Source of the DNA: Streptosporangium amethystogenes
GTDB lineage: Bacteria; Actinomycetota; Actinomycetes; Streptosporangiales; Streptosporangiaceae
Assembly (NCBI RefSeq): GCF_000721075.1
Contig: NZ_JOEQ01000037.1
Coordinates: 53,979-117,978, forward strand
Direction of reading: 5' to 3'
Length of the DNA stretch: 64,000 nucleotides
How positions within the stretch are numbered: position 1 is the stretch's first letter; each line of letters starts with the position of its first letter. A program made the position numbers and the translations under genes. Shown here piece after piece: positions 3,765 through 31,562 of this stretch. The notes beneath the pieces were generated by a model. It had not been told where the DNA came from, did not search any database, and was given only the letters and a program-made list of their open reading frames with translations.

Positions 3765-4559
3765 TCAGAGATTCAGGGCGAGATCTCGCGATGCCGCCGA
3801 GACCGTGCGGAGCAGCTGGGGGAGCACCTCGTCGGTCATCTGCTCCTGAGTGCGCAACGTGGCCTGGCTGCCGACTTTGATCGCGGCCACCGCCTTGCCG
3901 TCCTTGCCGCGGACCGGCGCGGCGATGGCGAGCACATGGGGGCTGAGCCGTCCTTCGACCAGCGCCCACCCCTGGGCGCGGATCTGATCCAGCTCGGCGC
4001 GCAGGGTGCCCTCGTCGACCACCGTCCGCGGTGTGTAGGTCTCCCGCTTGCTGGTGGCGAAGTACTCGGTGAGCTGGGCGTCGGAGAGGTCGGCCAGGAG
4101 GACGAGACCGGTCGACACCGTGTGTGCGGGGACCCGGTCACCGACCGCCAGCCCACCGTCGGCCGGGCGCCCGGACCTGGCCCTGGCCACGTAGATGACG
4201 TGGTCGCCGTCGCGTACCGCCGCTGAGGCGTCCTCGGAGAACTGCGCGGCCAGCGTAGTGAGCCGTGGCTGGAGTGTCTCGGTGAGCGACAGGCTCGTCA
4301 GATAGGCGTAGCCGAGTTCGAGCGTGCGGGGAAGCAGGAAGAACTGGCGGTGGTCCCGCCCGACGTAACCCAGCGACTCCAGGGTCATCAGCAGCCGCCG
4401 GGCGACGGCCTTGCTGAGCCGGCCCCGCTCGGCGACCTCGGTGAGCGTGAGCGGACCCCGTTCGTCGGCGAAGACACGGATCACGGTCAGCCCGCGTTCG
4501 AGGCTCTGCACATGCTCCGAGGAGCGCTCTAGCTCTGTCTCCTGATCCACCTTTAGCAT
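3765..4559 (-). CDS. IclR family transcriptional regulator of the catabolic cluster
   Basis: This 264-residue protein has the two-domain IclR layout: an N-terminal winged helix-turn-helix (residues about 18-80, VQSLERGLTVIRVFADERGPLTLTEVAERGRLSKAVARRL given here in outline) and a GAF-like effector domain (about 95-260; HVIYVARARSGRP, AHTVSTGLVLLA, ALVEGRLSPHVLAIAAPV). The N-terminal pattern resembles the PcaR/PobR/CatR group that controls degradation of aromatic and related acids. It is divergent from the flavin monooxygenase at 4758. An inverted repeat of AGTGAAC lies 17 bp upstream of its start, and related half-sites precede three other units of the cluster, so it is the probable cluster regulator. 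The effector is unknown. Confidence 0.9.
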   Translation of the reverse strand: MLKVDQETELERSSEHVQSLERGLTVIRVFADERGPLTLTEVAERGRLSKAVARRLLMTLESLGYVGRDHRQFFLLPRTLELGYAYLTSLSLTETLQPRLTTLAAQFSEDASAAVRDGDHVIYVARARSGRPADGGLAVGDRVPAHTVSTGLVLLADLSDAQLTEYFATSKRETYTPRTVVDEGTLRAELDQIRAQGWALVEGRLSPHVLAIAAPVRGKDGKAVAAIKVGSQATLRTQEQMTDEVLPQLLRTVSAASRDLALNL

Positions 4560-4575
4560 ACGTGTCCTCCAAGGC

Positions 4576-4609
4576 GTTCACTGAGTGGAACTATCTTCGC
4601 ATAGTGAAC
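4576..4609. promoter_or_regulatory. Putative IclR operator at its own promoter
   Basis: GTTCACT (4576-4582) and AGTGAAC (4603-4609) form a perfect 7-bp inverted repeat spanning 34 bp just upstream of the IclR start at 4559. The right half extends to ATAGTGAAC, one base away from the ATAGCGAAC half-sites found at 4720, 15672 and 15690. The position fits autoregulation. Confidence 0.5.
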
Positions 4610-4701
4610 CAGAAGTCGTCGTCGACTGAGTGCGTCTTGAGAAGTATGGGGGAGATTCGATCATAAGTGAGCCTTGACATGTTACCTCTGCCGTGTCCAC
4701 T

Positions 4702-4728
4702 ATGGCGAACGAAATTCGAATAGCGAAC
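4702..4728. promoter_or_regulatory. Putative IclR operator of the monooxygenase operon (direct repeat)
   Basis: ATGGCGAAC (4702-4710) and ATAGCGAAC (4720-4728) are direct repeats offset by 18 bp, ending 29 bp before the ATG at 4758. The same 9-mer with exactly the same 18-bp offset occurs before the crotonase gene at 15723, so this is probably a shared binding site and not chance. The overlap with the region upstream of the ATG argues against using an earlier start for the monooxygenase. Confidence 0.55.
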
Positions 4729-4757
4729 TTTCGGGTGTGGCGGGGAAGAGGAGAGCG

Positions 4758-5948
4758 ATGTCAGGACATCTGCGGTTCGGGAGCTTCATGCCGCCCTACC
4801 ACAGCCCGCTGAACAACCATGCCCTGTCGATCGAGCGGGACCTTGAGACCGTCGAACTGCTCGACAGGCTCGGGTACGACGACGTCTGGTTTGGTGAGCA
4901 CCACTCCGGTGGCTACGAGTGTTCGCCGATGCCCGAGCTGATGATCGCTGCCGCGGCGCAGCGCACCCGCCGGATCCGGCTCGGCACGGGGGTGATCTCC
5001 CTGCCCTACCACCACCCGCTGATGGTGGCCGACCGGATGGTCTTCCTCGACCATATGACGAGGGGACGGTGCGTCTTCGGAGTCGGTCCCGGCGCGCTGG
5101 TCGCCGACTCCCAGATGATGGGGATCGACTACGCCGACCTCCGACCGCGCATGGAGGAGTCGCTCGAAGTAATTCTCGAACTGCTGACCTCGTCGGAACC
5201 CGTCAACCGCAAGGCCGAGTGGTTCGAGTTGCGAGACGCCCAGCTGCACGTCCGCAGCCACACCAGGCCCATGGTCCCGATCGCCGTCGCGGGAGCGGTC
5301 TCGCCGACGGGCCCCAAGCTGGCCGGCCGGCACGGGCTGAGCCTGCTCTCCTTCGGAGCCGCGTCGACCGTCGGCTTCAACAAGCTGGCCGGCACCTGGG
5401 AGATCGTCGAGGCGGAGGCCGCGGCGGCCGGCACCCGGGTGGAGCGTGAGGACTGGGCACTCGTCGGCTACATGCACGTGGCCGAGACCGAGCGTCAGGC
5501 GCGTGACGAGGTGCGCTACCAGATCCGGAGCTTCTTCGACTACCACCACACCGTCGCGCCGCCCCTGCTGGCGGATGCCGAGACGATGACGCACGACGAG
5601 CTCGTCGACGGCATCAACGCCTCCGGCGCCGGAATCATCGGAACCCCCGAGATGGCCGTCGCGCATCTGCGAAAGCTGGTGGACCGGACCGGCGGCTTCG
5701 GCACCTTCCTCATCAGCAGCGTCGACTGGGCCAACCGCGAGGCGACGCGTCGCAGTCTCGAACTCTTCGCACGCGAGGTCGTCCCGCACTTCGACGGCAG
5801 CATTCCGGCGCGGGCGGCCGCCTTCGCGCGTGCCAAGGCGCGGCAGGTCGCGGACGGCCGGCTCAGGGATGTCGGCCGTGAGAAGGCGACGGCCGCCTAC
5901 AACATGGCCGTGACGGCGACCGATCAGCCGGACCGGACCATCCCCTGA
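4758..5948 (+). CDS. LLM-class flavin-dependent monooxygenase, LimB-like
   Basis: This roughly 396-residue protein is a bacterial luciferase-like (F420/FMNH2) TIM-barrel monooxygenase. Visible family motifs are FGSFMPPYH near the N-terminus, DDVWFGEHHSGGYE, RIRLGTGVISLPYHHPLMVADRMVFLDHMTRGR, and VGPGALVADSQMMG. The pattern matches what I know of limonene 1,2-monooxygenase-like proteins. Such enzymes use FMNH2 from a separate reductase, and one is encoded at 12277. The ATG at 4758 is chosen because GAAGAGGAGAG sits 3-13 bp upstream and the operator repeats lie just before it. It is probably the first gene of the operon running to 14686 and acts on an imported hydrophobic substrate. The C-terminal 40 residues are a poorly conserved tail. 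Confidence 0.85.
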   Translation: MSGHLRFGSFMPPYHSPLNNHALSIERDLETVELLDRLGYDDVWFGEHHSGGYECSPMPELMIAAAAQRTRRIRLGTGVISLPYHHPLMVADRMVFLDHMTRGRCVFGVGPGALVADSQMMGIDYADLRPRMEESLEVILELLTSSEPVNRKAEWFELRDAQLHVRSHTRPMVPIAVAGAVSPTGPKLAGRHGLSLLSFGAASTVGFNKLAGTWEIVEAEAAAAGTRVEREDWALVGYMHVAETERQARDEVRYQIRSFFDYHHTVAPPLLADAETMTHDELVDGINASGAGIIGTPEMAVAHLRKLVDRTGGFGTFLISSVDWANREATRRSLELFAREVVPHFDGSIPARAAAFARAKARQVADGRLRDVGREKATAAYNMAVTATDQPDRTIP

Positions 5949-6045
5949 CCTCTGGTTCGCGCGTTCACCGATCCATCAACGGCATTCATCTCGGGACACC
6001 CATCCCGCTCGGGGCGATATTCCAGCAATACCGTAGGAGTTCAAC

Positions 6046-7269
6046 ATGCCCAAAAGCCCCATCTGGTCCCGTAACGCGCGTGTGGGTGCAGCAACACTTG
6101 CGCTTTTGGTGACATCGCTCGGCCTGGCCGCGTGCGGCGGTGATTCAGCCGATTCGGCCGAGTCGACCGGTGCGGCCGCCGACCCCATCGTGATCTTCCA
6201 GACCAACTCGTTCAGCGGCCAGGTCTCGAACAAGCCGCAGACCAAGACCGGCGCCCAGGCCGCCGTCGACGAGATCAACAAGGCCGGCGGGGTGAACGGC
6301 CGCCGCCTCGAACTCGTCACCTGCGACAACACCGGTGACCCCAATGTCACCAACACCTGCATCAAGAAGGCGCAGGAGGTGAAGGCGGCGGCGTTCGTGG
6401 GCTCGGCCATCTACTTCCCCGGGACCTGGAAGTTCCTTGAGCAGGCGAGCATCCCCTATCTGCTCGGCACCGGGCTCACCCCTGACGAGTACAAGGCCAC
6501 GAACTCCTTCCCGCTCTCCGGGCAGGCCGGCTGGTACTACGGCATCGCTGACTACCTGAAGAAGCTCGGCGCCTCCCATCCGGCCATCATCCGGTGTGAG
6601 ATCGACGCCTGCGCCTACGGCGAGACCCTCCTCGCCGAAGCGCTGAAGCAGCAGGGCATGGCGGAGGCGAGGAGCGTGGTGGCGCCGCTCTCGACCACCG
6701 ACTACAGCAGCTTCGCCGCTGCGGCGATGCGCGGCGACACCGACGCCGTCGTGGTCACGGGCAGCGAGGCGACCGCGACGTCCCAGGCCAAGGCGTTGTA
6801 CCAGCAGGGCTTCAAGGGCAAGGTGATCAGCGTCTCTGCGTGCATCTCCACCCCGGCCGTCCCCAACCTTGGCGACGCCGGCAAGGACCTGTACGTGGTG
6901 GGCCTGCTGCAGCCCCCCACCCAGGGCACCCCGCTGATGGGGACGTTCATCCAGAGCATGGACGCGGTCGACAAGGGCGCCAAGAAGGACGAGCTCGCCC
7001 TCTCGGCGTACGCGGGCGTCAAGCTCTTCGCCGAGGTCGCCAAGGGCCTGCCAGAGGTGAACGCCACGACGGTGCTGGACGCGCTGCGGAACGCGAAGGC
7101 CGGCGCCTACGACATCGGCTTCACCGCGCCGCTGCCCGGGGCCACCACCTCGCCGATCGCGGAGCTGCCCCAGCTGAAGTTCTCGCCGACCGTCACTTAC
7201 AGCCAGATCCTCGACGGCACCATCAGGGAGAGCGTGACCGGCTTCCACTCCCCGTTCGCGGCGGTCTGA
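6046..7269 (+). CDS. ABC transporter substrate-binding lipoprotein (LivK type)
   Basis: This 407-residue protein has a lipoprotein signal peptide (RNAR n-region, hydrophobic core, lipobox LAAC with Cys30) followed by a type I periplasmic-binding fold of the branched-chain amino-acid family (DPIVIFQTNSFSGQ, AVDEINKAGGVNGRRLELVTCDNTGDP). The family also binds aromatic acids, ureas and terpenoid or steroid acids, so the ligand here is probably the cluster substrate and not Leu/Ile/Val. The ATG at 6046 follows GTAGGAG. It precedes the fused permease-ATPase gene by 25 bp, in the same operon. Confidence 0.9.
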   Translation: MPKSPIWSRNARVGAATLALLVTSLGLAACGGDSADSAESTGAAADPIVIFQTNSFSGQVSNKPQTKTGAQAAVDEINKAGGVNGRRLELVTCDNTGDPNVTNTCIKKAQEVKAAAFVGSAIYFPGTWKFLEQASIPYLLGTGLTPDEYKATNSFPLSGQAGWYYGIADYLKKLGASHPAIIRCEIDACAYGETLLAEALKQQGMAEARSVVAPLSTTDYSSFAAAAMRGDTDAVVVTGSEATATSQAKALYQQGFKGKVISVSACISTPAVPNLGDAGKDLYVVGLLQPPTQGTPLMGTFIQSMDAVDKGAKKDELALSAYAGVKLFAEVAKGLPEVNATTVLDALRNAKAGAYDIGFTAPLPGATTSPIAELPQLKFSPTVTYSQILDGTIRESVTGFHSPFAAV

Positions 7270-7294
7270 CGCGTTCGGGGCACAGGGAGGGTCG

Positions 7295-10018
7295 ATGAAC
7301 GAGCTCACCTTCATCCTGATCGGGATCGGTACGGGTTCCCTGTACGCACTGGTCGCCCAGGGACTTGTACTGATCTTCCGGGGATCGGGGATCGTCAACT
7401 TCGCGCAGGGGGCGTTCGCACTCTTCGGCGCGTACGTCTACTACAACGTCGCAGAGCACGCCGGTGCATCGCTTCTGGTGTGTCTGCTGGTCAGCGTCGC
7501 GGCCACGGGGCTGCTAGGCGTCCTGGTCCAGCTCCTCGTCCTCATGCCGATGCGAAGGGCGTCGTCACTGTCGCGCCTGATCGTCACACTCGGCGTCCTG
7601 GTGACCATTCAGGCGGCCGCGGTGGTGATCTACGGCGATCGTAATCTCGTGGTCCGGTCGTTGCTTCCGACCAACGGCATCGAGCTCCTGCCCGGTGCCA
7701 GGATCGGCGCCGACCGGATCATCATCCTCGCCATCGGCCTGGTGACGACCGCGGTCCTGTGGGCCGTGTTCCGATACACCTCCTATGGGCGCGTCACGAC
7801 GGCGGTCGCGCAGAGCCCACGTACCGCGGCGACCCTGGGGCACTCCCCGGATCGCATCGCCGCGGTCAACTGGGGGGTCGGCGGCGCGGTGTCCGGGCTC
7901 GCCGGCGCGCTCATCGTGCCCCTCACCAACCTCGAACCGATCAATCTGCCCCTGATCGTGCTCCCGGCCCTGGCGGCGGCCCTCGTCGGCGGGTTCGCCT
8001 CCTTCCCGCTGGCCTTCGTGGCCGCACTGCTCATCGGCGTGGCCGAGTCGCTCATGGCGCTGCACCTCAACCAGCCAGGTGTGTCGCAGAGCGTTCCCTT
8101 CCTGGTCGTCATGGTGCTCCTGATGGTGCGCGGCCGAGGCCTTCCGCTCCGCAGTCATCTCCTGGACAGGCTGCCGGGCGTCGGCGACGGGCGGGTGCGT
8201 CCCGTCCCGGTCCTGGTCGTCGTCGCGCTGGTCGCCCTCGCCATGCTCACCTCGGGCGAGGCGGCCAGCTACCTGACGGTGACCGTCACGATGGCGATCC
8301 TGTGCCTGTCCGTGGTGGTGGTGACGGGATACGCCGGGCAGGTCTCGCTCGCGCAGTACGTGCTGGGAGGTGTCGGCGCCTTCGTGGCCGCCACCCTCAG
8401 CAGCGGTCACGGGATGCCCTTCCTCGCCTGCCTGGCGCTCGCCGTACTGGCCACGATGATCCTCGGCGGCCTGGTCGGCGTGCCGGCGCTGCGGTTGCGC
8501 GGCATCAATCTCGCGATCGTCGGGCTGGGGCTCAGCGTGGCCGTCTACTCCCTGCTGCTCAACAACGAGCGCTACTCCGGCGGGGTCGACGGAATCCCGG
8601 TCGAGCCCGTCACCATCCTCGGCTGGGAGGTCGACCCCTTCTTCCATCCGGAGCGCTACGCCCTGCTCTGCCTGGCGGCTCTGGTCGTGGTGGCACTGAT
8701 GGTCTCGAACCTGCGGCGCGGCGACATCGGGAGGCGGCTGCTCGCGCTCCGCTCAAGTGAACGGGCGGCGGCGTCACTCGGTGTCAACGTCTACTGGTGC
8801 AAGATCTACGCCTTCATGATCGCGGCCGGTATCGCGGCCCTCGGCGGCACGCTCTTCGCGTTCATGCAGTCCATCGTGCTGACCGCGCAGTTCGGCGTGA
8901 TGTCGTCGGTCAACCTGATCACGGTCACCGTGGTCGGCGGTATCGGAAGCCTCCCCGGTGCCCTGGTGGGCGCCACCCTGATTCCCGGCGGCCTGGGCAC
9001 CTGGCTGCTCAACGGCGCCGGGCTGCAGGTCTGGCTCCCCCTGATCGGAGGGGTGTCGGTGCTGCTCGTGCTTCGCGCGGACCAGGGCGGTCTGGCCGAC
9101 CTCAACGTGGGGCTCTACCGCTCGCTGCGTGACCGGCTGCGATCGCTCGGGAACGCCGCGGAGGTCTCTTCCGACCACCCGGAGCCGGATCATCCGGAGC
9201 CTGCCCCCGGTACGCGCAGGGACATCTCCCCCGTCAGGGTGTCTCCCCTCGAACTGCGCGTCGAGGACCTCGGCGTACGCTACGGCGGCGTGGTCGCCCT
9301 CGAAGGCGTGAACCTGCGGGTGAAGCCCGGCACGGTCCACGGGATCATGGGTCCCAACGGCGCGGGCAAGACCTCGCTGGTCGACGCGCTGACCGGATTC
9401 GCCCAGGTCGCCGCAGGGACGGCATATCTGGGCGACCGCCGGCTCGACGGATGCAGTCCGATGCGGCGCTCGCGCCTCGGTCTGCGGCGTTCGTTCCAGT
9501 CGGTCGAGCTGTTCTCCTCGCTCACCACCCGCGACAACATCGCGATCGGTTGCGACGACGGAGCGCCGTCGTCGTACATCACCGGGCTGCTCTGGCCGAA
9601 GGGCCCGCGGCTGAGCGAGGCGGCGGAGGCGGCGCTGGAGAAGTTCGGTCTCTCCAGGGTCCTGGACGCGCCCGTCGAGTCGCTGTCGTTCGGCGACCGC
9701 CGCCTGGTGGCCATCGCGCGGGCGGTCGCCTCGGCCCCCTCGGTCATCCTGCTGGACGAGCCGGCCTCCGGGCTGGCGGACCGGGAGAGTGCCGAACTCG
9801 CCGCGCTCGTCCGGTCGCTGGCCGACGACTGGGGGATGGCCGTGCTGCTCGTCGAGCACAACATCAACCTCGTCCTGTCGGTCAGCGACGAGATCACCGT
9901 GCTGCAGGCGGGACGCGTGCTCGCCCACGGAACCCCGGCGGAGATCTCGGCGGATCAGTCCGTCGTCGACGCCTACCTCGGCCAGAGCACGACCCCCGGA
10001 GAAGTGGTGATCTCATGA
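7295..10018 (+). CDS. Three-domain ABC importer subunit: LivH-LivM-LivG fusion
   Basis: This 907-residue protein combines three normally separate proteins. Residues 1 to about 290 are a LivH-type permease (IGIGTGSLYALVAQGLVLIFRGSGIVNFAQG, written here in outline). Residues about 300-605 are a LivM-type permease with the GYAGQVSLAQ motif near 345. After an acidic Pro-rich linker with repeated HPEP, residues about 651-907 are a LivG ATPase with Walker A GPNGAGKT (about 686), a signature LSFGDRR and Walker B VILLDEPASGL (about 817). No stop or frameshift interrupts the linkers, so the fusion appears real. It overlaps the LivF gene by 4 bp. It would form the membrane core of the importer with the lipoprotein before it and the second ATPase after it. 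Confidence 0.9.
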   Translation: MNELTFILIGIGTGSLYALVAQGLVLIFRGSGIVNFAQGAFALFGAYVYYNVAEHAGASLLVCLLVSVAATGLLGVLVQLLVLMPMRRASSLSRLIVTLGVLVTIQAAAVVIYGDRNLVVRSLLPTNGIELLPGARIGADRIIILAIGLVTTAVLWAVFRYTSYGRVTTAVAQSPRTAATLGHSPDRIAAVNWGVGGAVSGLAGALIVPLTNLEPINLPLIVLPALAAALVGGFASFPLAFVAALLIGVAESLMALHLNQPGVSQSVPFLVVMVLLMVRGRGLPLRSHLLDRLPGVGDGRVRPVPVLVVVALVALAMLTSGEAASYLTVTVTMAILCLSVVVVTGYAGQVSLAQYVLGGVGAFVAATLSSGHGMPFLACLALAVLATMILGGLVGVPALRLRGINLAIVGLGLSVAVYSLLLNNERYSGGVDGIPVEPVTILGWEVDPFFHPERYALLCLAALVVVALMVSNLRRGDIGRRLLALRSSERAAASLGVNVYWCKIYAFMIAAGIAALGGTLFAFMQSIVLTAQFGVMSSVNLITVTVVGGIGSLPGALVGATLIPGGLGTWLLNGAGLQVWLPLIGGVSVLLVLRADQGGLADLNVGLYRSLRDRLRSLGNAAEVSSDHPEPDHPEPAPGTRRDISPVRVSPLELRVEDLGVRYGGVVALEGVNLRVKPGTVHGIMGPNGAGKTSLVDALTGFAQVAAGTAYLGDRRLDGCSPMRRSRLGLRRSFQSVELFSSLTTRDNIAIGCDDGAPSSYITGLLWPKGPRLSEAAEAALEKFGLSRVLDAPVESLSFGDRRLVAIARAVASAPSVILLDEPASGLADRESAELAALVRSLADDWGMAVLLVEHNINLVLSVSDEITVLQAGRVLAHGTPAEISADQSVVDAYLGQSTTPGEVVIS

Positions 10019-10725
10019 GCGCCCCCATTCTGCAGGTACGGCGGCTCAGCGCGGGGTACGGCGATCTCGCGGCGGTGCACGGCATCGACCTGGCCGTGCA
10101 CCCGGGTGAGATCGTCGCGTTGTTCGGGCCGAACGGCGCGGGCAAGACGACGACGCTGCTCACGATCGCGGGCGAACTGCCGGGCCTGGGCGGTGAGGTA
10201 CGGCTCTTCGGGGCGCCGACGAAGGCGCCCGTCCACCGGCGTGCGCGGCAGGGGCTGGCGTTCGTCCCCGAGGAGCGGGCGATCGTCCCCGGCATGTCGA
10301 CGCGGGACAACCTCCGCCTCGGCCGGGGTGGCGTCGACCGGGCCGTCGCCGTCTTCCCCGAACTCGGCCGGCTCCTCGACCGTCCGGCGGGGCTGCTCTC
10401 CGGCGGGGAGCAGCAGATGCTGGTGCTGGCCCGGTGCATCGCCACGGAGCCGAGACTGCTGCTGGCCGACGAGCTGTCCCTGGGGTTGGCGCCCCTGGTC
10501 GTGAACCGGCTCATGGACACCCTGCGCCGGGTGGTGGACGAGCACGGTGTCGGCGTTCTGCTCGTCGAGCAGCAGGCCAAACGAGCCCTGTCCGTCGCCG
10601 ACCGCTGGTATCTGTTGCGCCAGGGGGAGATCGCCGCCACGGGTGAGCGCGGCGGCGACTGGCGGGAGGTCGAAGAGGCCTATTTCGGGACCCGCGGCCA
10701 CCCACAGAAACTGGAGGCACCCTGA
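10015..10725 (+). CDS. ABC transporter ATP-binding protein (LivF type)
   Basis: This 236-residue ATPase carries Walker A GPNGAGKTT near residue 38, signature LSGGEQQMLVLARC, Walker B LLLADELSLGLAP and the switch His region LLVEQQAK. The start ATG at 10015 overlaps the stop of the fused permease-ATPase as ATGA, which implies translational coupling. The LivF-type sequence (PEERAIVPGMSTRDNL) identifies it as the second nucleotide-binding domain of the importer, pairing with the LivG domain at the end of the fusion protein. Its own stop overlaps the aldehyde dehydrogenase start by one base (TGATG), linking transport and catabolism in one transcript. Confidence 0.92.
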   Translation: MSAPILQVRRLSAGYGDLAAVHGIDLAVHPGEIVALFGPNGAGKTTTLLTIAGELPGLGGEVRLFGAPTKAPVHRRARQGLAFVPEERAIVPGMSTRDNLRLGRGGVDRAVAVFPELGRLLDRPAGLLSGGEQQMLVLARCIATEPRLLLADELSLGLAPLVVNRLMDTLRRVVDEHGVGVLLVEQQAKRALSVADRWYLLRQGEIAATGERGGDWREVEEAYFGTRGHPQKLEAP

Positions 10726-12233: not shown

Positions 12234-12276
12234 GCCGGGATCGGCGAGTCCGATCGTTTTGCGAGAAAGGTCTTCC

Positions 12277-13107
12277 ATGCTTCTGCGAATAGATCCGGCC
12301 GACGGCGGATCGGTGTCTCTTGAGGATCCCGACGATCTGTCCCGGCTGAAGATCGTCGCCCGATCGGACGCCCGCGAGTCCGCGGTCTACGCCCTGCAGC
12401 GCAACCGGGTCGGCGTGATGGCCGCCGACGGCACGGCGCTGGTCGACCCCGACGCCCTCCGGCGGCTCAGCGGTGACCGGGTCGGCCCCGGCTGGGAGGC
12501 GCGCTTCGCCGACATGCTGCGCATGGCCGGCGAGGTGGGCTGGACGGCGCCGGACGGCCGGCTGTTCGTCCACACCGACTGGGTGGCCGGCGAGGACCTG
12601 GGCCTGGGGACCGAGCCTCAGGTCGATCGCGACGAGCTCCGCCGGGCCCTGGGCCGTTTCGCCACCGGAGTGGTCGTGGCGGCGGCGGTGGGCGCGGAAG
12701 GGCCGGTCGGACTCGCCTGCCAGAGCTTCACCTCGCTCTCGCTCGACCCGCCGCTGGTCTCGCTGGCGCCCGCGCGCACCTCGAAGAGCTGGCCCCAGAT
12801 CGCGGCCGCCGGCACCTTCTGCGTCAGCGTGCTGGCCGAGGAGCAGTTGGACGTGTGTCAGCGCTTCGCGGTGTCCGGCGGCGACAAGTTCGCCGGACTC
12901 TCCTGGCACCCCTCCTCCGTGACCGGCAGCCCGGTCATCGACGACTGCCTCGCCTGGGTCGACTGCCGGATCGAACTGGTCCACTCGGCGGGCGATCACG
13001 AGCTCGTCATCGGACGAGTCCTCGCGCTGGACGCCGCCGACGGCCGCCCGCTGGTGTTCTTCGCGAGCCGCTTCGCCCAGCTCGCACAGGCGGGAGCGGT
13101 CACGTGA
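12277..13107 (+). CDS. Flavin reductase with an unusual N-terminal extension
   Basis: This 276-residue protein carries a flavin-reductase-like FMN-binding domain at residues about 115-270: LRRALGRFATGVVVAAAV, LACQSFTSLSLDPPLVSLAP, SKSWPQI, FCVSVLAEEQ. This is the reductase partner type for two-component FMN monooxygenases. The first 110 residues are an added region (residues 15-100, DPDDLSRLKIVARSDARESAVYALQ onward) that I do not recognise. It probably supplies FMNH2 to the LimB-like monooxygenase at 4758. The ATG at 12277 is preceded by GAGAAAGG. The last codon overlaps the next gene by 4 bp (GTGA). Confidence 0.85.
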   Translation: MLLRIDPADGGSVSLEDPDDLSRLKIVARSDARESAVYALQRNRVGVMAADGTALVDPDALRRLSGDRVGPGWEARFADMLRMAGEVGWTAPDGRLFVHTDWVAGEDLGLGTEPQVDRDELRRALGRFATGVVVAAAVGAEGPVGLACQSFTSLSLDPPLVSLAPARTSKSWPQIAAAGTFCVSVLAEEQLDVCQRFAVSGGDKFAGLSWHPSSVTGSPVIDDCLAWVDCRIELVHSAGDHELVIGRVLALDAADGRPLVFFASRFAQLAQAGAVT

Positions 13108-13850
13108 GCGCACAGCCGCTGCTGGTCGACGCGGACGACACGAGCGTCGTCGTCAGCCTGAACCGTGCCGCCGTCCGCAACGCGTTGGACCTGGCGACGG
13201 TGGAGGCGCTGCACACCGTCTGCGCGCGGCTTGAGCGGCGTCCGCGGATCCTGGTCGTCCGGGGTGAGGGCGCGGACTTCGCCGCCGGGGCCGACATCCG
13301 CGAGCTACGGCACCGTGGCCGCGCCGAGGCCCTGGAGGGCATCAACGCGACCCTCTTCGAACGGATCCGGCAGCTGGCCATGCCCACCGTCGCCCTGCTC
13401 GACGGGAACGTCCTGGGCGGCGGCGCCGAGCTGGCCTACGCCTGCGACCTGCGGATCGGCACACCGCGGGTGCGGATCGGGAACCCCGAGCCCGGCCTCG
13501 GCATCGTGGCCGCCGCCGGAGGGTGCGTGCGGCTGGCGGAACTGGTCGGTGAGTCGATCGCGGTACAGGTGCTGCTCGGGGGCCGGATCCTGTCCGGCAC
13601 CGAGGCGTACGGCTACGGCCTGCTCGCCGAACTGGTCGAGCCCGACGAGTTGGACGCCGCCGCCGACCGGCTGGTCGAGCGCCTCGTCCGGCAGGCACCC
13701 CTCGCACTCCGGCTGACCAAGGCGCTCATCCACGCTCCGCGCTCGGCCCACCCGCTTGTCGCCAACCTGGCCCAGGCCGTGTTGTTCGAAACCGAGGAGA
13801 AGGACGTACGGATGGACGCGTACCTCGACCGCCGGACGGTGCGGCCGTGA
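13104..13850 (+). CDS. Enoyl-CoA hydratase/isomerase (crotonase family)
   Basis: This 248-residue crotonase-fold protein has the oxyanion-hole segments FAAGADIREL and LGGGAELAYACD. Both acidic residues of a true hydratase are visible: Glu in GGGAEL, and Glu in GNPEPGLG, which corresponds to the PEI/L...G position. Hydration of an enoyl-CoA is therefore plausible. The GTG start overlaps the flavin-reductase stop and its stop overlaps the next GTG, so 12277-14686 is a tightly coupled reductase, hydratase and dehydrogenase unit. The next gene supplies the following beta-oxidation step. Confidence 0.9.
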   Translation: MSAQPLLVDADDTSVVVSLNRAAVRNALDLATVEALHTVCARLERRPRILVVRGEGADFAAGADIRELRHRGRAEALEGINATLFERIRQLAMPTVALLDGNVLGGGAELAYACDLRIGTPRVRIGNPEPGLGIVAAAGGCVRLAELVGESIAVQVLLGGRILSGTEAYGYGLLAELVEPDELDAAADRLVERLVRQAPLALRLTKALIHAPRSAHPLVANLAQAVLFETEEKDVRMDAYLDRRTVRP

Positions 13851-14686
13851 GCGGGCTGCCGGGCCGCGTCGTGGTCTACGGGGGCGGGCGGATGGGAGCG
13901 GGGATCGCGCACGCCTTCGCCTCCCGGGGGTCCGAGGTGACCATTCTGGAGGTCGACGACGACGCGGCCGCCCGGGCCCTCGCGCGGGTCGAGCGCGACC
14001 TGCGGCGATCGGCAGGGGACGATGCCGGGAGGGTCGGATCGCGCCTGGCCGTGGCATCCGATCCGCGGGTACTCGCCGGGGCGGAGCTGGTGATCGAGGC
14101 GGTTCCCGAGCGCCCCGATGTCAAGCTCCAGGTGCTTCGGACCGCTCATCGGTACGCCCCGGACGCCGTACTCGCCTCCAACACGAGTTCGCTGTCCATC
14201 GATGAGCTGGCGGACGGCCTGCCGCGCCCCGAGCTGTTCGTGGGCCTGCACTTCTTCAACCCGGTCCCGGCCAGCACCCTCGTCGAGATCGTGGTGGGCA
14301 GGATGACCGCCGCCACGCTGGTCGAACGGGCGACCTCGTGGGTCGAGGCGCTGGGCAAGGCCGCCGTCACGATACGAGACAGCCCGGGGTTCGCGAGCAG
14401 CCGTCTGGGGGTCGCACTCGCACTGGAGGCGATCAGGATGGTCGAGGAGGGCGTGGCGACGGCGGAGGACATCGACAACGTCCTGGTCCTGGGTTATCGC
14501 CATGCGACGGGGCCGCTGCGCACCACCGACCTGGTCGGTCTCGACGTGCGCCTGGCGATCGCCGAAGAGCTCGCCTCGAAGCTCGGCCCGCGCTTCGCCC
14601 CGCCGCGCCTGCTGGTCGAGAAGGTGGCCGCCGGTGAGCTCGGGCGTAAGTCGGGCCGCGGGTTCTTCGACTGGCCGCGGCCGTGA
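13847..14686 (+). CDS. 3-hydroxyacyl-CoA dehydrogenase
   Basis: This 279-residue protein has an NAD-binding Rossmann domain with YGGGRMGAGIAHAFA near the N-terminus, the LxxAELVIEAVPE segment, SNTSSLS, and the catalytic region GLHFFNPVP. A C-terminal all-alpha domain follows (SPGFASSRLGVALALEAIRMVEEGVA, KSGRGFFDW). The length is that of stand-alone single-function 3-hydroxyacyl- or hydroxybutyryl-CoA dehydrogenases. It would oxidise the 3-hydroxyacyl-CoA produced by the upstream crotonase to the 3-oxoacyl-CoA. No thiolase is encoded next to it. The GTG start overlaps the upstream stop. It converges with the SDR gene with a gap of only 2 bp. Confidence 0.92.
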   Translation: MSGLPGRVVVYGGGRMGAGIAHAFASRGSEVTILEVDDDAAARALARVERDLRRSAGDDAGRVGSRLAVASDPRVLAGAELVIEAVPERPDVKLQVLRTAHRYAPDAVLASNTSSLSIDELADGLPRPELFVGLHFFNPVPASTLVEIVVGRMTAATLVERATSWVEALGKAAVTIRDSPGFASSRLGVALALEAIRMVEEGVATAEDIDNVLVLGYRHATGPLRTTDLVGLDVRLAIAEELASKLGPRFAPPRLLVEKVAAGELGRKSGRGFFDWPRP

Positions 14687-14688
14687 TG

Positions 14689-15522
14689 TCAGCGGCTGAG
14701 GTTGCCCGCGTCCACCGGCAGCGCCGCGCCGGTGATGTAGCGGGCCTCGTCAGAGGCGAGGAACAGGACGGCGTTGGCGACGTCCTCGGGCTCGACCCAG
14801 GGCACGGGGAGCAGGTGCAGCGAGGTGAACGCCTCCATCGCGTCCTCCAGGGTCGGCTCCTCAAGATCCGGCCGGAAGGTGCGGTAGGTGGCCTCGTTGA
14901 AGATCAGGCCGGTGCGCACCGCGGTGGGATGAACCGAGTTCACCCGGATGCCGTACGGCGCCAGTTCGGCGGTCAGGCTGCGGGCGAGGCCGAGCAGGCC
15001 GTGCTTGGAGGCGGTGTAGGCGGACAGGGATCCCAGACCCTTCAGTCCCAGGGTGGAGTTCACGAAGACGATCGCCCCGCCTCTGCCCCCGTCGATCATG
15101 ACCGGGGCCGCCGCCCGTACCGTGCGCTGCGCCCCGATGAGGTTCACCTGGAGCATCGACTCGAAATCCTGGGGATCCAGCTCCCAGGCGGGGACCTTGC
15201 GCCCGGAGATGCCCGCATTGCAGATCAGTGTGTCGATGTGGCCGAATCGATCGACCCCGTCCGCCACGGCCGCCTCCAGATCGGCGGAGGATCGCACGTC
15301 GGCGCGTCGCCAGAGGATGCCACGACCGGTCGCCTCGACGAGCCGGACCGTCTCCACCATGTCCGCCTCGCAGGCCAGTCCGTAGGCGAGCCCTTCGTTG
15401 TCGGCGAGCACGTCGAGAGCGACGATGTCGGCGCCCTCCGCGGCGAGCCTGACGGCGTGCGCGCGTCCTTGACCGCGCGCCGCGCCAGTGATCATGGCGA
15501 CTCGGCCTGCCATCCGGCCCAT
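14689..15522 (-). CDS. Mycofactocin-coupled SDR family oxidoreductase
   Basis: This 277-residue short-chain dehydrogenase has TGAARGQGRAHAVRLA (glycine-rich loop), a CNAG segment (LICNAGISG), and the catalytic YxxxK as AYTASKHG with the preceding Ser in NSTLG. The MVETVRLVEATGRGI insertion and the ARGQGRAHA pattern are typical of the SDR subgroup whose NAD is tightly bound and recycled by the peptide cofactor mycofactocin. It probably oxidises a hydroxylated intermediate to the aldehyde or ketone. The ATG at 15522 is chosen because CGGGAG lies 7 bp upstream. An IclR-type operator pair sits directly upstream. No mycofactocin biosynthesis genes are in the window. Confidence 0.82.
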   Translation of the reverse strand: MGRMAGRVAMITGAARGQGRAHAVRLAAEGADIVALDVLADNEGLAYGLACEADMVETVRLVEATGRGILWRRADVRSSADLEAAVADGVDRFGHIDTLICNAGISGRKVPAWELDPQDFESMLQVNLIGAQRTVRAAAPVMIDGGRGGAIVFVNSTLGLKGLGSLSAYTASKHGLLGLARSLTAELAPYGIRVNSVHPTAVRTGLIFNEATYRTFRPDLEEPTLEDAMEAFTSLHLLPVPWVEPEDVANAVLFLASDEARYITGAALPVDAGNLSR

Positions 15523-15536
15523 GTACGTCTCCCGAA

Positions 15537-15569
15537 GTTCGGTATTCGAAAAAAAATCGATTTGCGAAC
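15537..15569. promoter_or_regulatory. Putative IclR operator at the SDR promoter
   Basis: GTTCGGTAT (15537-15545) and TTTGCGAAC (15561-15569) are imperfect inverted half-sites related to ATAGCGAAC, with a total span of 33 bp. The span and orientation match the inverted pair at 4576-4609, and an ATTCGAA block lies between them as it does near 4714. It lies 15 bp upstream of the SDR start. Confidence 0.45.
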
Positions 15570-15671
15570 CGACCATAGGATCCGCATTTATCCCTGTCAA
15601 CAAGGAGAATGTCGATAGGTCGGGCTTCATCCCCCTTGACATCCTCTCCGCAGAGCCCCAACATCTCGTAA

Positions 15672-15698
15672 ATAGCGAACTAAGTACAAATAGCGAAC
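15672..15698. promoter_or_regulatory. Putative IclR operator of the crotonase/CoA-transferase operon
   Basis: Two identical 9-mers ATAGCGAAC occur at 15672-15680 and 15690-15698, offset by 18 bp, ending 24 bp before the ATG at 15723. The arrangement duplicates that before the monooxygenase gene at 4758. This is the best copy of the motif in the window. Confidence 0.6.
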
Positions 15699-15722
15699 CC
15701 CGGTGGCGTCCAGTCGGGGGAC

Positions 15723-16610
15723 ATGACAAGGAAGGACCCATCCGTGTTCGAGCATGTGATCTACGAGAAGTCGGGCAAGATCGCCCGGCTGATCATGAAC
15801 CGCCCGGAGAAGCTCAACGCTCTGAACGTGAAGATGTTCGGGGAGCTGGTGGCCGGCCTGAAGATGGCCGAGGAGGACGACGACATCAAGGTCATCATCC
15901 TGAAGGGCAACGGGCGGTCCTTCAGCACCGGTCACGACCTCAGCGAGGTCGGCTTCGTCTACGGCTTCTCCGACGGCAAGTCCGAGGAGGGCCGGCGCAA
16001 GCGGCCGAGCCAGCGGGTCCGTCTGCAGTTCGACCGCAAGCTCCTGGAGATGTACCAGGCCTTCATGTACTCGATGAAGCCGATCATCGCCCAGGTGCAG
16101 GGCCACGCGATCGGTGGTGGCCTCTACCTGACCGAGGTGGTCGACCTCGCGATCGCCGCGGAGGACGCGTCCTTCAGCCACGCCGAGCAGCGCCTCATGG
16201 GAGGCGGACGGTCGCTGATCGGCAACACCGAGATCCTGCTGCTCGGCCCCAAGCGCGCACGGGAGTTCCTGCTGTTCGGCGAGCCGATGAGCGGCGTACG
16301 GGCCGCCGAGGTCGGGCTCATCAACAAGGCGGTGCCGGCCGACCTGCTGGAGGCCGAGACCGAGCGCTGGGCCGAACGGCTCGCCCGTCACCCCAAGGAC
16401 GCCCTGGTGGTCGGGAAGGTCTTCCAGCAGATGGCGCTCGACTCCCTCGGCTACACGAGCCAGATGATGCGCGGCTACGTCGGCCACACCCTCAGCACCA
16501 ACATGCGATTCGAAGACGACGAGTACAACTACTTCAAGGGGCGGCGGGACGAGGGCGCCCGCGGCGCGATGCACTCCCGTGACCGCTTCTTCACCGAGGC
16601 CCAGCAGTGA
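15723..16610 (+). CDS. Crotonase-family protein lacking one hydratase glutamate
   Basis: This 295-residue crotonase-fold protein has a normal N-terminal half (IARLIMNRPEKLNALNVKM) and the first oxyanion segment SFSTGHDLSEV. In the second segment the usual GGGxE is GGGLYLTEVVD, so the first hydratase Glu is replaced, while the second acidic position (SHAEQRLMGGG) is kept. A charged insertion of about 30 residues (SDGKSEEGRRKRPSQR) follows the first motif. The protein is longer than a standard hydratase and may be an isomerase, a hydrolase or a C-C bond-cleaving crotonase and not an enoyl-CoA hydratase. It heads an operon with two CoA-transferases and is preceded by twin IclR-type half-sites. 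Confidence 0.85.
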   Translation: MTRKDPSVFEHVIYEKSGKIARLIMNRPEKLNALNVKMFGELVAGLKMAEEDDDIKVIILKGNGRSFSTGHDLSEVGFVYGFSDGKSEEGRRKRPSQRVRLQFDRKLLEMYQAFMYSMKPIIAQVQGHAIGGGLYLTEVVDLAIAAEDASFSHAEQRLMGGGRSLIGNTEILLLGPKRAREFLLFGEPMSGVRAAEVGLINKAVPADLLEAETERWAERLARHPKDALVVGKVFQQMALDSLGYTSQMMRGYVGHTLSTNMRFEDDEYNYFKGRRDEGARGAMHSRDRFFTEAQQ

Positions 16611-17836
16611 CCGACACCTCCGCGGAGCCGGGCGCCCCGGCGCCGTTCGACGGCATCCGGATCGTCGACCTGACACATGCCGGGGCCGGGCCGTTCGCGA
16701 CGATGCAGCTCGCCGACCTCGGCGCGACGGTGGTCAAGATCGAACGGCTCCGGCACGGCGACGGCTCCCGTTACTTCGGCAACCGCCTGGACGGTTTCGA
16801 CGCCTCCGACTACTTCCTGGCGTTGAACCGCTCGAAGTCCTCCGTCGCGCTGGACTTCGCCCGCCCGGAGGGCGCCGAGCTGGTACGGCGTCTGGTGGCC
16901 GACGCCGATGTCCTCATCGAGAACTTCCGCCCGGGCGTCCTCGCCCGGCACGGCCTCGACTTCGCCACCCTGGCCGACGCGCACCCCCGCCTCGTCTACT
17001 GCTCGATCTCGGCGTTCGGGCCGGACGGACCGTGGGTCGCCAAGGGCGGCAACGACATCACGATCCAGGGCCTGTCGGGGCTGATGGCGGGGACCGGGTC
17101 CGGCGAGGGCGGTCCGATCAAGATCGGTTCCCCGCTGTGCGACCTGACGGCCGGGCTCTACGCGGCCTTCGGGATCGCGTCGGCGCTGCTGGCCAGGGAG
17201 CGGGTCGGTCGCGCGCAGCTGGTGGAGGTCCCGATGCTCGACGCTGCCGTCTCCCTGATGGCCAGCTTCGTGCCGTCGGTCGCGGCGGGCGGGCCGCCAC
17301 CGCGACCGGAAGGCACCGGGCACGCCCAGATCGTGCCGTACCAGGCGTTCCTCTGCGCGGATGAGCGGCACCTGATCGTCGGGGCGTTCTCGAACCACTT
17401 CTGGCGTGCCCTGTGCGAGGTGATCGGCCGTACCGATCTCCTCGGTGTCGACGCGTACCGGACCAACGAGCTACGGGTGAGGAACCGGTCGGCGCTCGTC
17501 CCGCAACTCGAAGCCGAGTTCGCCACCCGAAGCCGGGCCGAGTGGCTGCGGCTGCTCGAAGCCGCGGCCGTGCCGTGCAGCCCGGTGCTGGGCGTCGACG
17601 AGGCGATCGTGTCGGAACAGGCCGTCCACAACCGGGTCCTACGGTGGCTTGAGGCCGGGGACCGCAAGGTCGGGGTGACCCGTCAGCCGATCCGTGGATC
17701 GGCGTGGCGGGCCGTGCCCGCCACGATGCCGCCCGCGCTGGGCGAGCACACGCGTCAGGTCCTATCGGAGGAGCTGGGGATGTCCGACGCCGACATCGAC
17801 GGCCTCATCGCCAGTGGCGTCGTGGAGAGCCGATGA
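16607..17836 (+). CDS. Class III (CaiB/BaiF) CoA-transferase, first of a pair
   Basis: This 409-residue protein has the family III CoA-transferase fold: IRIVDLTHAGAGPFATMQLADLGATVVKIER (outline) at the N-terminus, IENFRPGVLARHGLDF, and the segment SPLCDLTAGLYAAFGIASALLARER in which the Asp of CDLTAG matches the catalytic Asp that forms the acyl anhydride in this family. It moves CoA between acids without ATP. The GTG start overlaps the crotonase stop and the stop overlaps the next CoA-transferase start. The pair could form a heteromer, as in benzylsuccinate CoA-transferase BbsEF, or act on different acids. Confidence 0.9.
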   Translation: MTDTSAEPGAPAPFDGIRIVDLTHAGAGPFATMQLADLGATVVKIERLRHGDGSRYFGNRLDGFDASDYFLALNRSKSSVALDFARPEGAELVRRLVADADVLIENFRPGVLARHGLDFATLADAHPRLVYCSISAFGPDGPWVAKGGNDITIQGLSGLMAGTGSGEGGPIKIGSPLCDLTAGLYAAFGIASALLARERVGRAQLVEVPMLDAAVSLMASFVPSVAAGGPPPRPEGTGHAQIVPYQAFLCADERHLIVGAFSNHFWRALCEVIGRTDLLGVDAYRTNELRVRNRSALVPQLEAEFATRSRAEWLRLLEAAAVPCSPVLGVDEAIVSEQAVHNRVLRWLEAGDRKVGVTRQPIRGSAWRAVPATMPPALGEHTRQVLSEELGMSDADIDGLIASGVVESR

Positions 17837-19080
17837 CGACCAACGATCAGAAAACGGGCGGCGGGGTCCTGGCCGGACTCAAGGTGCTGGACCTCGCCCA
17901 TCACTACTCGGCGGCCTTCGCCGGGGTACTCCTCGCCGACCTCGGCGCGGACGTGACGGTCGTGGAACACCCGCAGGGGAACGTGTTGCGCGGCATGCTG
18001 CCGCAGCGGCACGGCGTACCCCTGTGGTCGACCCTGGTCGGCCGCAACAAGGGCAACATCAGCTTGAAGCTGTCCGAGCCGCGCGGTCAGGAGCTTCTGC
18101 GGCGACTCGCCACCGAGTACGACGTCCTCATTGAGAACTTCCGTCCCGGCACCCTTGAGCGCTGGGGTCTCGGACCTGACGACCTGGCGGCCGCCGGCGC
18201 CGACCTGGTGATGCTGCGCGTGAGCGGCTACGGCCAGAGCGGGCCGAAGTCGGCACGCCCCGGCTTCGGCGGCGCGGCGGAGGCGATGAGCGGGCTCACC
18301 CAGATGACCGGGCCTGAGGGCGGGAACCCGATCCTCCTGTCCACCGCGATCGCCGATGGAGCCGCGGGCACCTTCGGAGCCCTGGGAGTGCTGGCCGCGT
18401 TGTGGCAGCGGGCTTCGGCACGGGCCGGTGGGGAGCCTCGCCGACCCGGCGTCGAAGTGGTCGACATCGCGCTCTTCGAAGGAGTGTTCCGCCTTATCCC
18501 CACCCAGATCGTTGAATATGACCAGTGTGGCATCATCCCCGGTCGATCCGGCAGCGTACGGGAACACGGCGTGATCCGCGGGGTGTACCGCGCCGGCGAC
18601 GGTGTCGACTTCTGCGTCAGCTCGGTGGGACCCCGTGCGATACGCCGCATGCTTGAGTCCATCGCGGCCGACAGTCTCGTGGCCGAACTCGATCAGGATG
18701 TGCTGGGCGAGGGCGAGGACGCCGTCGTCGACTTCGTGACCCGAAGCGAGAAGGCGTTCACCGCCTGGGCGGCCGGTTCGTCCTGGGCCGAGGTGGCGGC
18801 GGCGCTGGACCGTACGGGCATGGTCTACGAGCGGGTCCACACCGTGGCCGACATCGCGGAGGACGAGCACTTCCTCGCCAGGGAGGACGTGGTCACCGCC
18901 CACGACCCGATCCTGGGCGAGGTCCGGATGCCCGGCATCGTGCCCAAGTTCTCCGGTTTCCACCACGAGGTCCGCACCACTGGCAAACAGGTCGGCGCGG
19001 ACAACGAGACCCTCTACGGGGCACTCCTCGACCTCACCCCCGCCGAGCTCGCCGCACTCCGCGGCGAAGGCGTCATCTGA
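17833..19080 (+). CDS. Class III (CaiB/BaiF) CoA-transferase, second of a pair
   Basis: This 415-residue member of the same family has VLDLAHHYSAAFAGVLLADLGADVTVVEHP (outline), a second signature LIENFRPGTLERWGLGPDD, and a catalytic-type Asp in STAIADGAAGTFGALG. It is clearly divergent from the preceding gene, so it is not a recent tandem duplicate. It is the last gene of the 15723-19080 operon. With the upstream crotonase it presumably activates the acid produced by the aldehyde dehydrogenase. The start ATG at 17833 overlaps the previous stop by 4 bp. The specific acid and CoA donor are unknown. Confidence 0.9.
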   Translation: MTTNDQKTGGGVLAGLKVLDLAHHYSAAFAGVLLADLGADVTVVEHPQGNVLRGMLPQRHGVPLWSTLVGRNKGNISLKLSEPRGQELLRRLATEYDVLIENFRPGTLERWGLGPDDLAAAGADLVMLRVSGYGQSGPKSARPGFGGAAEAMSGLTQMTGPEGGNPILLSTAIADGAAGTFGALGVLAALWQRASARAGGEPRRPGVEVVDIALFEGVFRLIPTQIVEYDQCGIIPGRSGSVREHGVIRGVYRAGDGVDFCVSSVGPRAIRRMLESIAADSLVAELDQDVLGEGEDAVVDFVTRSEKAFTAWAAGSSWAEVAAALDRTGMVYERVHTVADIAEDEHFLAREDVVTAHDPILGEVRMPGIVPKFSGFHHEVRTTGKQVGADNETLYGALLDLTPAELAALRGEGVI

Positions 19081-22673: not shown

Positions 22674-22684
22674 GCCTGAATAGT

Positions 22685-22725
22685 ACGTACGTGTAAGACA
22701 GTTGTGCAAGACGTATGTGTAAGAT
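22685..22725. promoter_or_regulatory. Triple direct repeat between the monooxygenase and TetR genes
   Basis: GTGTAAGAC (22691-22699), GTGCAAGAC (22704-22712) and GTGTAAGAT (22717-22725) are direct repeats at an exact 13-bp period, filling the 58-bp divergent gap. The outer copies extend left as ACGTACGTGTAAGAC and ACGTATGTGTAAGAT. The repeats may be the TetR operator and may overlap both core promoters. A tandem arrangement is unusual for TetR proteins, which normally bind palindromes. Confidence 0.45.
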
Positions 22726-22731
22726 TGGTTC

Positions 22732-25942: not shown

Positions 25943-26063
25943 GACTTCCCCCGGAGAACGGTCATGGACGCCGTCGACGTTGTCGCGGTTACCCGGATCA
26001 AGGAGATCGATCGTGTCTCCAGCCGTGCCGGGGCCGCCGAGGAGGCGGTCGCCGTGTGGACCC

Positions 26064-31464: not shown

Positions 31465-31562
31465 ATGGATGCACTCCTTTTTCTGGTATGAACCGGATAC
31501 CTCCGGCGTGACCGCCTTCATAGCCGCGAATCATCCGGGGAAACCCGAAAAGCAGTTGATGA

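Follow-up and report, generated by a model that had tools for sequence, protein, structure and literature searches.

Gene content and layout of the locus

We characterized a catabolic gene cluster and the IclR-family regulator gene beside it, located at positions 3765 to 19080 of a 64-kb stretch of DNA from Streptosporangium amethystogenes (contig NZ_JOEQ01000037.1, positions 53,979 to 117,978, forward strand); this whole stretch is called the window hereafter. The regulator very probably governs the cluster as a local regulon, through paired palindromes of a known IclR type before iclR and before the three catabolic units. The sequence itself shows the sites, the gene families, the overlaps within operons, the patterns of catalytic residues and the sharing of contigs elsewhere; from these we infer binding, repression, effector and substrate. 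The 13 open reading frames (ORFs) of the cluster are as follows.

3765..4559, minus strand: IclR-family regulator, assigned to a sister clade of PcaR/PcaU/PobR (Pfam HTH_IclR and IclR_C)
4758..5948, plus strand: luciferase-like flavin-dependent monooxygenase (LLM), LimB-like (PF00296)
6046..7269, plus strand: substrate-binding protein (SBP) of a Liv-type ATP-binding cassette (ABC) importer (PF13458, Peripla_BP_6)
7295..10018, plus strand: fused importer subunit of 907 amino acids, two Liv-type permease domains plus ATPase (PF02653 in two stretches, PF00005)
10015..10725, plus strand: importer ATPase LivF (NCBIfam UrtE/LivF-type matches, on a longer ORF from 9451); 4-bp overlap with the preceding gene
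10725..12233, plus strand: aldehyde dehydrogenase (ALDH; PF00171, 465 bits; best NCBIfam match TIGR04284, below cut-off)
12277..13107, plus strand: HsaB/FerA-like flavin reductase (PF01613 on a longer ORF from 12202; inferred start)
13104..13850, plus strand: ECH1, canonical enoyl-coenzyme A (CoA) hydratase, both catalytic Glu positions present
13847..14686, plus strand: 3-hydroxyacyl-CoA dehydrogenase (HCDH; PF02737 and PF00725)
14689..15522, minus strand: short-chain dehydrogenase/reductase (SDR) of the carveol-dehydrogenase (LimC) type, TIGR03971 (358.8 bits, cut-off 300; PDB 3oec, 298.9 bits)
15723..16610, plus strand: ECH2, noncanonical crotonase, with Tyr at the Glu144 position and an invariant Glu155 at the Glu164 position
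16607..17836, plus strand: CT1, class III CoA-transferase subunit, catalytic Asp150 (PF02515, 369 bits)
17833..19080, plus strand: CT2, class III CoA-transferase subunit, Gly at the catalytic Asp position (PF02515, 271 bits, on a longer ORF from 17704)

The first operon runs from LLM through SBP, the permease-permease-ATPase fusion, the second ATPase, ALDH, the flavin reductase and ECH1 to HCDH; the SDR gene is convergent to it, and ECH2, CT1 and CT2 follow thereafter. Genes overlap by 1 to 4 bp at six junctions, and gaps of 97 bp (LLM-SBP), 25 bp (SBP-fusion) and 43 bp (ALDH-flavin reductase) were found at others. Profile matches bore out the enzyme families that a first-pass annotation of this DNA had listed for the catabolic cluster. 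Pfam and NCBIfam family scans of the 13 ORFs gave no match to an acyl-CoA dehydrogenase, a thiolase or a CoA ligase. The flavin reductase has an N-terminal extension of about 110 amino acids (12277-12615) with no Pfam match.

Paired palindromes at the cluster promoters

In excerpts of the survey by Suvorova and Gelfand (2021; PMC8222616), the group-1 IclR palindrome has the consensus GKTYCRYW3-4RYGRAMC, tandem sites with centres 18 to 22 nt apart are described for 94 orthologous groups and read as tetramer binding, and the Corynebacterium glutamicum PcaR site is given as GTTCGC-N3-GCGAAC. We scored this published consensus, which is independent of the sites studied here, at every position of the window and collected pairs with centres 18 to 22 nt apart (box score maximum 17, pair sum maximum 34; the W4 form counted minus one). 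Such pairs were found upstream of the targets at four putative operators.

4575..4610, no strand: iclR operator, two group-1 palindromes; centres 4583 and 4602, 19 bp apart; best pair of the window, sum 30/34 (15+15)
4694..4729, no strand: LLM operator, two palindromes; centres 4702 and 4721, 19 bp apart; sum 27 (14+13); holds the direct pair 4702/4720
15536..15570, no strand: SDR operator, two palindromes; centres 15544 and 15562, 18 bp apart; sum 26 (13+13)
15663..15699, no strand: ECH2 operator, two palindromes; centres 15671.5 and 15691, 19.5 bp apart; sum 27 (14+13); holds the identical direct pair 15672/15690

The top three tandem pairs of the window are those before iclR, LLM and ECH2. 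All three loci with a sum of at least 27, and four of the seven with a sum of at least 26, fall within two intergenic regions that make up 0.6% of the window. Dinucleotide shuffles reached the best pair in 0 of 2,000 cases for the iclR/LLM region and in 17 of 2,000 for the SDR/ECH2 region, the latter figure concerning the ECH2 pair as the best of its region, as the SDR pair was not shuffled alone. Six control spacing ranges gave one to three loci each, with none or one inside the two regions.

The first-pass annotation had described the repeats as half-sites in two arrangements, inverted pairs spanning 33 to 34 bp and direct pairs offset by 18 bp. All eight arms lie at the coordinates it gave, and both kinds of pair are present, although each amounts to two palindromes 18 to 19.5 bp apart; as every box is a pseudo-palindrome in its own right, the distinction between direct and inverted is not real, and there is one arrangement only. 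Judged by the consensus, all the "half-sites" belong to IclR group-1 palindromes of the known type. The expectation that IclR proteins bind such repeats agrees with the tandem palindromes at 18 to 22 nt in the survey excerpts (PMC8222616), which also means that the sites are not of a new kind. The regulons described there are alike in the group-1 consensus, the tandem spacing and the position of iclR beside the regulated catabolic operons; we noted no categorical difference from these excerpts, the regulator clade and the target genes being what is new here.

Besides, a three-box site of the PcaU type was considered, which carries a 10-bp external repeat, and was ruled out by the 18- to 19.5-bp spacing.

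Six of the eight arms differ from ATAGCGAAC by at most one mismatch, while the arm at 4576-4584 (TCAGTGAAC) has three mismatches to it and the arm at 15561-15569 (TTTGCGAAC) has two. At one mismatch or fewer, ATAGCGAAC occurs 12 times in the window against 4.98 expected, a count reached in none of 100 shuffles; six of these matches lie inside the two promoter regions, and the six outside are near background. In the draft genome (9.44 Mb, 99.89% complete), we searched for the direct pair with an 18-bp offset, allowing three mismatches over 18 specified bases and using the reversed pattern as control. Three places were found against two for the control: those before ECH2 and LLM (zero and one mismatch) and one place with three mismatches on contig C28. 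The ECH2 pair is the sole exact direct pair in the draft genome, and the genome search proposed in the first-pass annotation thus shows the 18-bp pair to be nearly unique.

Single boxes behaved differently. An extended box consensus, GTTCGCTATTCGAA, was derived from these sites themselves and is partly circular; it was kept for genome counts only, and the published consensus was preferred. With up to three mismatches it matched the genome 144 times, compared with 103 times for the reversed control; one loose box by itself is thus frequent and not specific. At zero and one mismatch it occurs genome-wide only at the LLM and SDR promoters, and at two or fewer it has 18 matches, four of which are the four cluster promoters. 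The earlier proposal that chance recurrence of the motif at every unit start is unlikely therefore holds for the pairs, which concentrate at cluster promoters, but not for loose single boxes.

The regulator and its distribution

The regulator scored 252.9 bits against TIGR02431 (PcaR/PcaU/PobR), below the cut-off of 284.75. Four clade members, including the window regulator, reached 244 to 259 bits (the match of one, P0137, extends only to position 220 of 248), and both sister proteins tested reached 353 to 359. Among the best 120 of 849 homologues, 17 relatives (P0123-P0139) share 59 to 95% identity, after which identity drops to 49%. By these scores and an alignment of 22 sequences, the regulator is placed in a small clade just outside PcaR/PcaU. 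It resembles PcaR/PcaU/PobR over its full length (46 to 49% identity to sister proteins), and its boxes resemble the C. glutamicum PcaR site, whereas the cluster has no β-ketoadipate enzyme over cut-off among the ORFs scanned with NCBIfam.

The clade was found in the window genome only among 394 genomes of the class, 69 of which match at E≤1e-50 with a best other identity of 48%, and in one of 16 genomes of the genus, two more matching at 47%. A locus search with the regulator protein returned 13 loci at 25 to 41% identity and no ortholog, and none of 296 other genomes of the family has a close LLM ortholog, nine matching at 44 to 52%. Since it is rare and patchy, the cluster was probably acquired. 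Among the best 120 homologues listed, the nearest named relative is Sphaerisporangium viridialbum for both LLM and the regulator (95% each) and Streptosporangium sp. NPDC002607 for ECH2 (95%).

Co-occurrence elsewhere was read from identical sizes of the homologues' longest contigs, with the best 120 homologues per protein. Regulator and LLM homologues share contig sizes of 10001908, 26320, 38776 and 7436 bases, and regulator and ECH2 homologues share sizes of 11244, 15336, 10353 and 110901 bases; a coincidence at 13484 bases concerned distant LLM and ECH2 relatives and was not counted. Within these lists, eight of the 17 clade members have such a shared contig and nine have none; the 3567191-base contig of Aeromicrobium (P0130) appears in the regulator list only. 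These matches suggest that the regulator travels with its targets.

Promoters and direction of control

TTGACA occurs nine times in the window on both strands, and three of these occurrences lie at cluster promoters: 4674 (plus), 15636 (plus) and 15600 (minus). Each has a -10-like hexamer 17 to 18 bp further on, with the paired boxes lying over or after it. The promoters below are weak calls and consensus matches only.

4674..4703, plus strand: putative LLM operon promoter, TTGACA-18 bp-CACTAT (3/6 in the -10); the -10 overlaps the first operator box
15572..15600, minus strand: putative SDR promoter, TTGACA-17-TATGGT; operator directly downstream; passes a stricter promoter scan
15636..15664, plus strand: putative ECH2 promoter, TTGACA-17-CAACAT (3/6 in the -10); operator at its 3' end

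Because TTGACA stands before three of the four sites with the boxes on or after the -10 hexamer, repression is the likely direction of control. The regulator would thus act as a local repressor, probably of its own gene as well, most likely as two dimers on paired palindromes of about 17 bp with centres 18 to 19.5 bp apart. The operators would lie over or just downstream of the -10 at the three catabolic units and in the promoter region of iclR, and a pathway intermediate would release the protein.

It is unlikely, but worth considering, that the regulator is an activator instead. PcaU and PobR are activators, and TIGR02431, the curated family closest to the regulator, contains them; moreover, the LLM promoter found by the stricter scan (TTGAGA-16-GATCAT at 4637-4664) sits upstream of the LLM boxes. 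The TTGACA-paired hexamers before LLM, SDR and ECH2 argue otherwise, as a pair of dimers bound over or after them would block the polymerase. That the sites arose by chance or belong to another regulator is highly improbable, for although loose single boxes are frequent and three other window loci match the score of the SDR pair, the paired boxes concentrate at cluster promoters with the centre spacing typical of IclR and flank the only IclR gene of the genome that matches at E≤1e-60.

Several points weigh against a local regulon under repression. Apart from the SDR promoter, none of the proposed promoters passed the stricter scan: it replaced the LLM promoter by the upstream one and found none for ECH2. 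For iclR, the consensus search gave no good promoter (best 8/12). The stricter scan also placed a terminator-like stem (15586-15563) over the SDR promoter stretch. The SDR pair is the weakest site and ties for ranks 4 to 7 with the three other loci. Besides, the operator pairs were read in the window genome alone, and equal contig size indicates the same contig rather than adjacency, above all for the 10-Mb one. Nevertheless, the paired sites at the cluster promoters lend good support to the proposal of the first-pass annotation that a single catabolic cluster is under a local IclR regulon.

The SDR and mycofactocin

The SDR had been called a mycofactocin-type enzyme. Its TIGR03971 score exceeds the cut-off, and it is the sole TIGR03971-type match at E≤1e-75 in its genome, but the mycofactocin maturase was not found there. 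The parts of two reports that treat this family (PMC3023750, PMC5264612) state that it occurs only with mycofactocin genes; contrary to that rule, the best MftC match in the window genome reached 101.7 bits against a cut-off of 265. MftC was also absent at E≤1e-40 from all 16 genomes of the genus, and a second genome of the genus (G123) has an SDR over cut-off (315.7 bits) without MftC. MftB gave no match in the genome, and the controls likewise gave none.

In the class, MftC exceeds the cut-off in 58 of 197 genomes, and 44 of the 48 TIGR03971-positive genomes carry it (listed positives, from 197 genomes for each family, apparently the same draw). The four without MftC are the window genome (G000), G401 and two genomes that are 93% complete, G317 and G437. 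TIGR03971 members without the maturase thus exist but are uncommon, and assembly gaps may account for some.

CoA-transferases and crotonases

Both CoA-transferase genes of the first-pass annotation are present and of class III, although they are probably the two subunits of a single heteromeric enzyme, which is the simplest reading. Asp in the first gene and Gly in the second were found in all three CT1/CT2 pairs compared, from an actinomycete, a betaproteobacterium and a haloarchaeon. In Diaphorobacter, the CT1 and CT2 homologues stand side by side in the same order (45%/45% identity), and in Halomarina they keep that order (40%/37%) with one hydrolase gene between them. Among plasmids, CT2 has relatives in 135 records, three of which were inspected. 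One (L081, 10700-13203) has the betaproteobacterial CT1/CT2-like pair, with a MaoC and an IclR gene, and another (L084, 3836-7209) has the haloarchaeal pair, with a 3-hydroxy-3-methylglutaryl-CoA lyase, both with the Asp/Gly pattern; in the third (L085), no CT1-like gene lies within 8 kb.

BbsEF and SmtAB are known two-subunit class III CoA-transferases. They are comparable in the overlapping gene pair with the catalytic Asp in one subunit only, and chains of PDB 9fn0 (benzylsuccinate CoA-transferase) are among the matches of both CT1 and CT2. CT1 differs in being nearer to SUGCT-type enzymes (succinate-hydroxymethylglutarate CoA-transferase; 9br7, 270 bits) than to 9fn0_B (185 bits).

The two crotonases are unlike each other. 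ECH1 keeps both catalytic glutamates, whereas in ECH2 and the nine relatives nearest to it Tyr takes the position of Glu144 (in the numbering of rat enoyl-CoA hydratase), and Glu155, at the position of Glu164, is invariant in 17 aligned sequences; ECH2 thus lacks the canonical Glu pair. It may be an isomerase, a hydrolase or a lyase. Relatives of ECH2 occur in two plasmid records (49 and 53% identity, unannotated), in one of which (L082) CT1-, ALDH- and ECH1-like frames at 30 to 39% lie nearby.

Pathway and substrate

The cluster probably encodes one CoA-dependent catabolic pathway. That this and the regulon both hold, the substrate left aside, is a reasonably likely conjunction. A Liv-type ABC importer would bring in the substrate, and LLM with the flavin reductase would then carry out a flavin-dependent monooxygenation. 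The SDR may oxidize a secondary alcohol and ALDH an aldehyde; a CT1/CT2 heteromer would transfer CoA, ECH1 would hydrate, HCDH would oxidize and ECH2 might open or isomerize the ring. In this scheme, the ring would be handled as a CoA ester, as in the Castellaniella mrc or the BadK-BadH-BadI route.

The part of the Castellaniella report that bears on the mrc route describes a perillyl-CoA hydratase, a dehydrogenase and a ring hydrolase (PMC4109377). These routes fit ALDH, CT1/CT2, ECH1, HCDH and ECH2 because they open a ring without an acyl-CoA dehydrogenase or thiolase. They share with the cluster an aldehyde dehydrogenase, CoA activation, a hydratase, a dehydrogenase and a crotonase that is possibly ring-hydrolysing; in contrast, the window has a CoA-transferase instead of a ligase, an HCDH-type dehydrogenase beside the SDR, an ECH2 far below the BadI cut-off, and LLM and the importer in addition. 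Our best, though tentative, suggestion for the substrate class is a cyclohexene-carboxylate or p-menthane-type terpenoid acid.

Two groups of observations sit badly with such a route. Neither LLM nor an SDR next to an HCDH has an obvious part to play in it. Besides, the nearest NCBIfam families of ECH2 are generic hydratases (PRK08290, 173.5 bits against a cut-off of 280), and it scored 106.7 against BadI (TIGR03210, cut-off 467.6) and about 107 against MenB (cut-off 380). Its structural model is poor (predicted local distance difference test score 69.7, with residues 151-180 at 41-52), and Foldseek searches with the model ranked hydratases, MenB and hydroxycinnamoyl-CoA lyases almost equally.

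The first-pass annotation had assumed a hydrophobic substrate and named terpenoids, alicyclic acids and steroids for growth screens. The hydrophobic substrate is only half borne out: LimB/LimC-type enzymes speak for a terpenoid or alicyclic compound, whereas the Liv-type importer suggests that a polar acid enters the cell. Steroids find no specific support; the 13 ORFs gave no match to an acyl-CoA dehydrogenase or thiolase.

One alternative, which we consider doubtful, is a limonene or carveol pathway proper, with LimB-like epoxidation or hydroxylation, LimC-like oxidation and subsequent ring opening of the ketone. The roles of LimA, LimB and LimC are set out in the relevant passages of PMC7794910. 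On a plasmid of Rhodococcus qingshengii CX-1, a gene of the limonene-1,2-epoxide hydrolase family, an LLM oxidoreductase gene and limC stand in this order; LLM is 49% identical to that LLM protein, which is LimB by position only, as the record does not name it so, and the SDR is 49% identical to LimC of the same plasmid. Besides, many LLM homologues are named limonene 1,2-monooxygenase by the Joint Genome Institute, and LLM with a flavin reductase fits a two-component monooxygenase. However, in a family with 7222 matches at E≤1e-60 the substrate is not settled by 49% identity, and a PDB search with LLM was not decisive (7bip, 84 bits; 8cbb, 81; 3,6-diketocamphane monooxygenase 4uwm, 71). Plasmid relatives of LLM occur in 19 records, the best 15 listed being 45 to 51% identical; of six inspected (48 to 51%), one has a lim context and the rest vary, for example a polyketide-synthase region in L075. 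The window holds no match to limonene-1,2-epoxide hydrolase, and PF07858 has none in the draft genome (1/14 controls positive). The window cluster adds an importer, ALDH, CoA-transferases and crotonases to what it shares with the Rhodococcus one, and a Liv-type importer is unexpected for a volatile hydrocarbon.

Equally improbable in our estimate is a pathway for an aromatic, phenylpropanoid or steroid-ring acid, in which the reductase would serve an aromatic hydroxylase-like LLM and ECH2 would be a hydratase-lyase or an EchA20-like hydrolase. PcaR relatives are sensors of aromatic-acid intermediates. The nearest families of the flavin reductase are HsaB (187.6 bits, cut-off 230) and FerA (157.4, cut-off 260), and the fold of ECH2 also resembles hydroxycinnamoyl-CoA hydratase-lyases. 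EchA20 provides a precedent for a ring-opening crotonase, as far as the excerpted report on it goes (PMC5380842). Against this, the 13 ORFs gave no match to a ring-cleavage dioxygenase, an HsaA-type oxygenase or a CoA ligase, and neither the flavin reductase nor ECH2 reaches any of its listed curated NCBIfam cut-offs.

Other genes in the window

A gene at 1458-2408 encodes a regulator with an N-terminal GntR helix-turn-helix and a TetR-type body, with a weak MftR2 match (56 bits, cut-off 285). At 21501-22766 lies a flavin adenine dinucleotide-dependent monooxygenase resembling tetracycline destructase (344.6 bits, cut-off 550), which adjoins a TetR regulator at 22732-23271. Genes for the gamma, delta and beta subunits of a respiratory nitrate reductase occupy 24588-27728, and a large ORF at 27775-31521 (not scanned) may encode the alpha subunit.

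Implications

The regulatory switch is of a known kind, and the gene set, which the first-pass annotation did not recognize as a described pathway, had no description in the literature searched, which lay mostly outside subscription papers. Three oddities stand out: the regulator clade, the orphan SDR and the asymmetric CoA-transferase pair. More speculatively, and in our view improbably as a whole, the cluster might be an undescribed mobile actinobacterial pathway for alicyclic or terpenoid acids. It would combine a mycofactocin-free SDR (with exchangeable NAD or another partner), activation by a two-subunit CoA-transferase, ring opening by a single-Glu crotonase and a regulator clade split from PcaR.

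With four sites, one protein, three operons and few candidate substrates, the cluster is a compact regulon open to test. Recurring in three lineages far apart, the CT1/CT2 pattern suggests a general CoA-transferase module of two subunits. Activity of the SDR without mycofactocin would break the only-if rule stated for TIGR03971, and the enzyme would then offer a route to learn how such enzymes recycle buried NAD.

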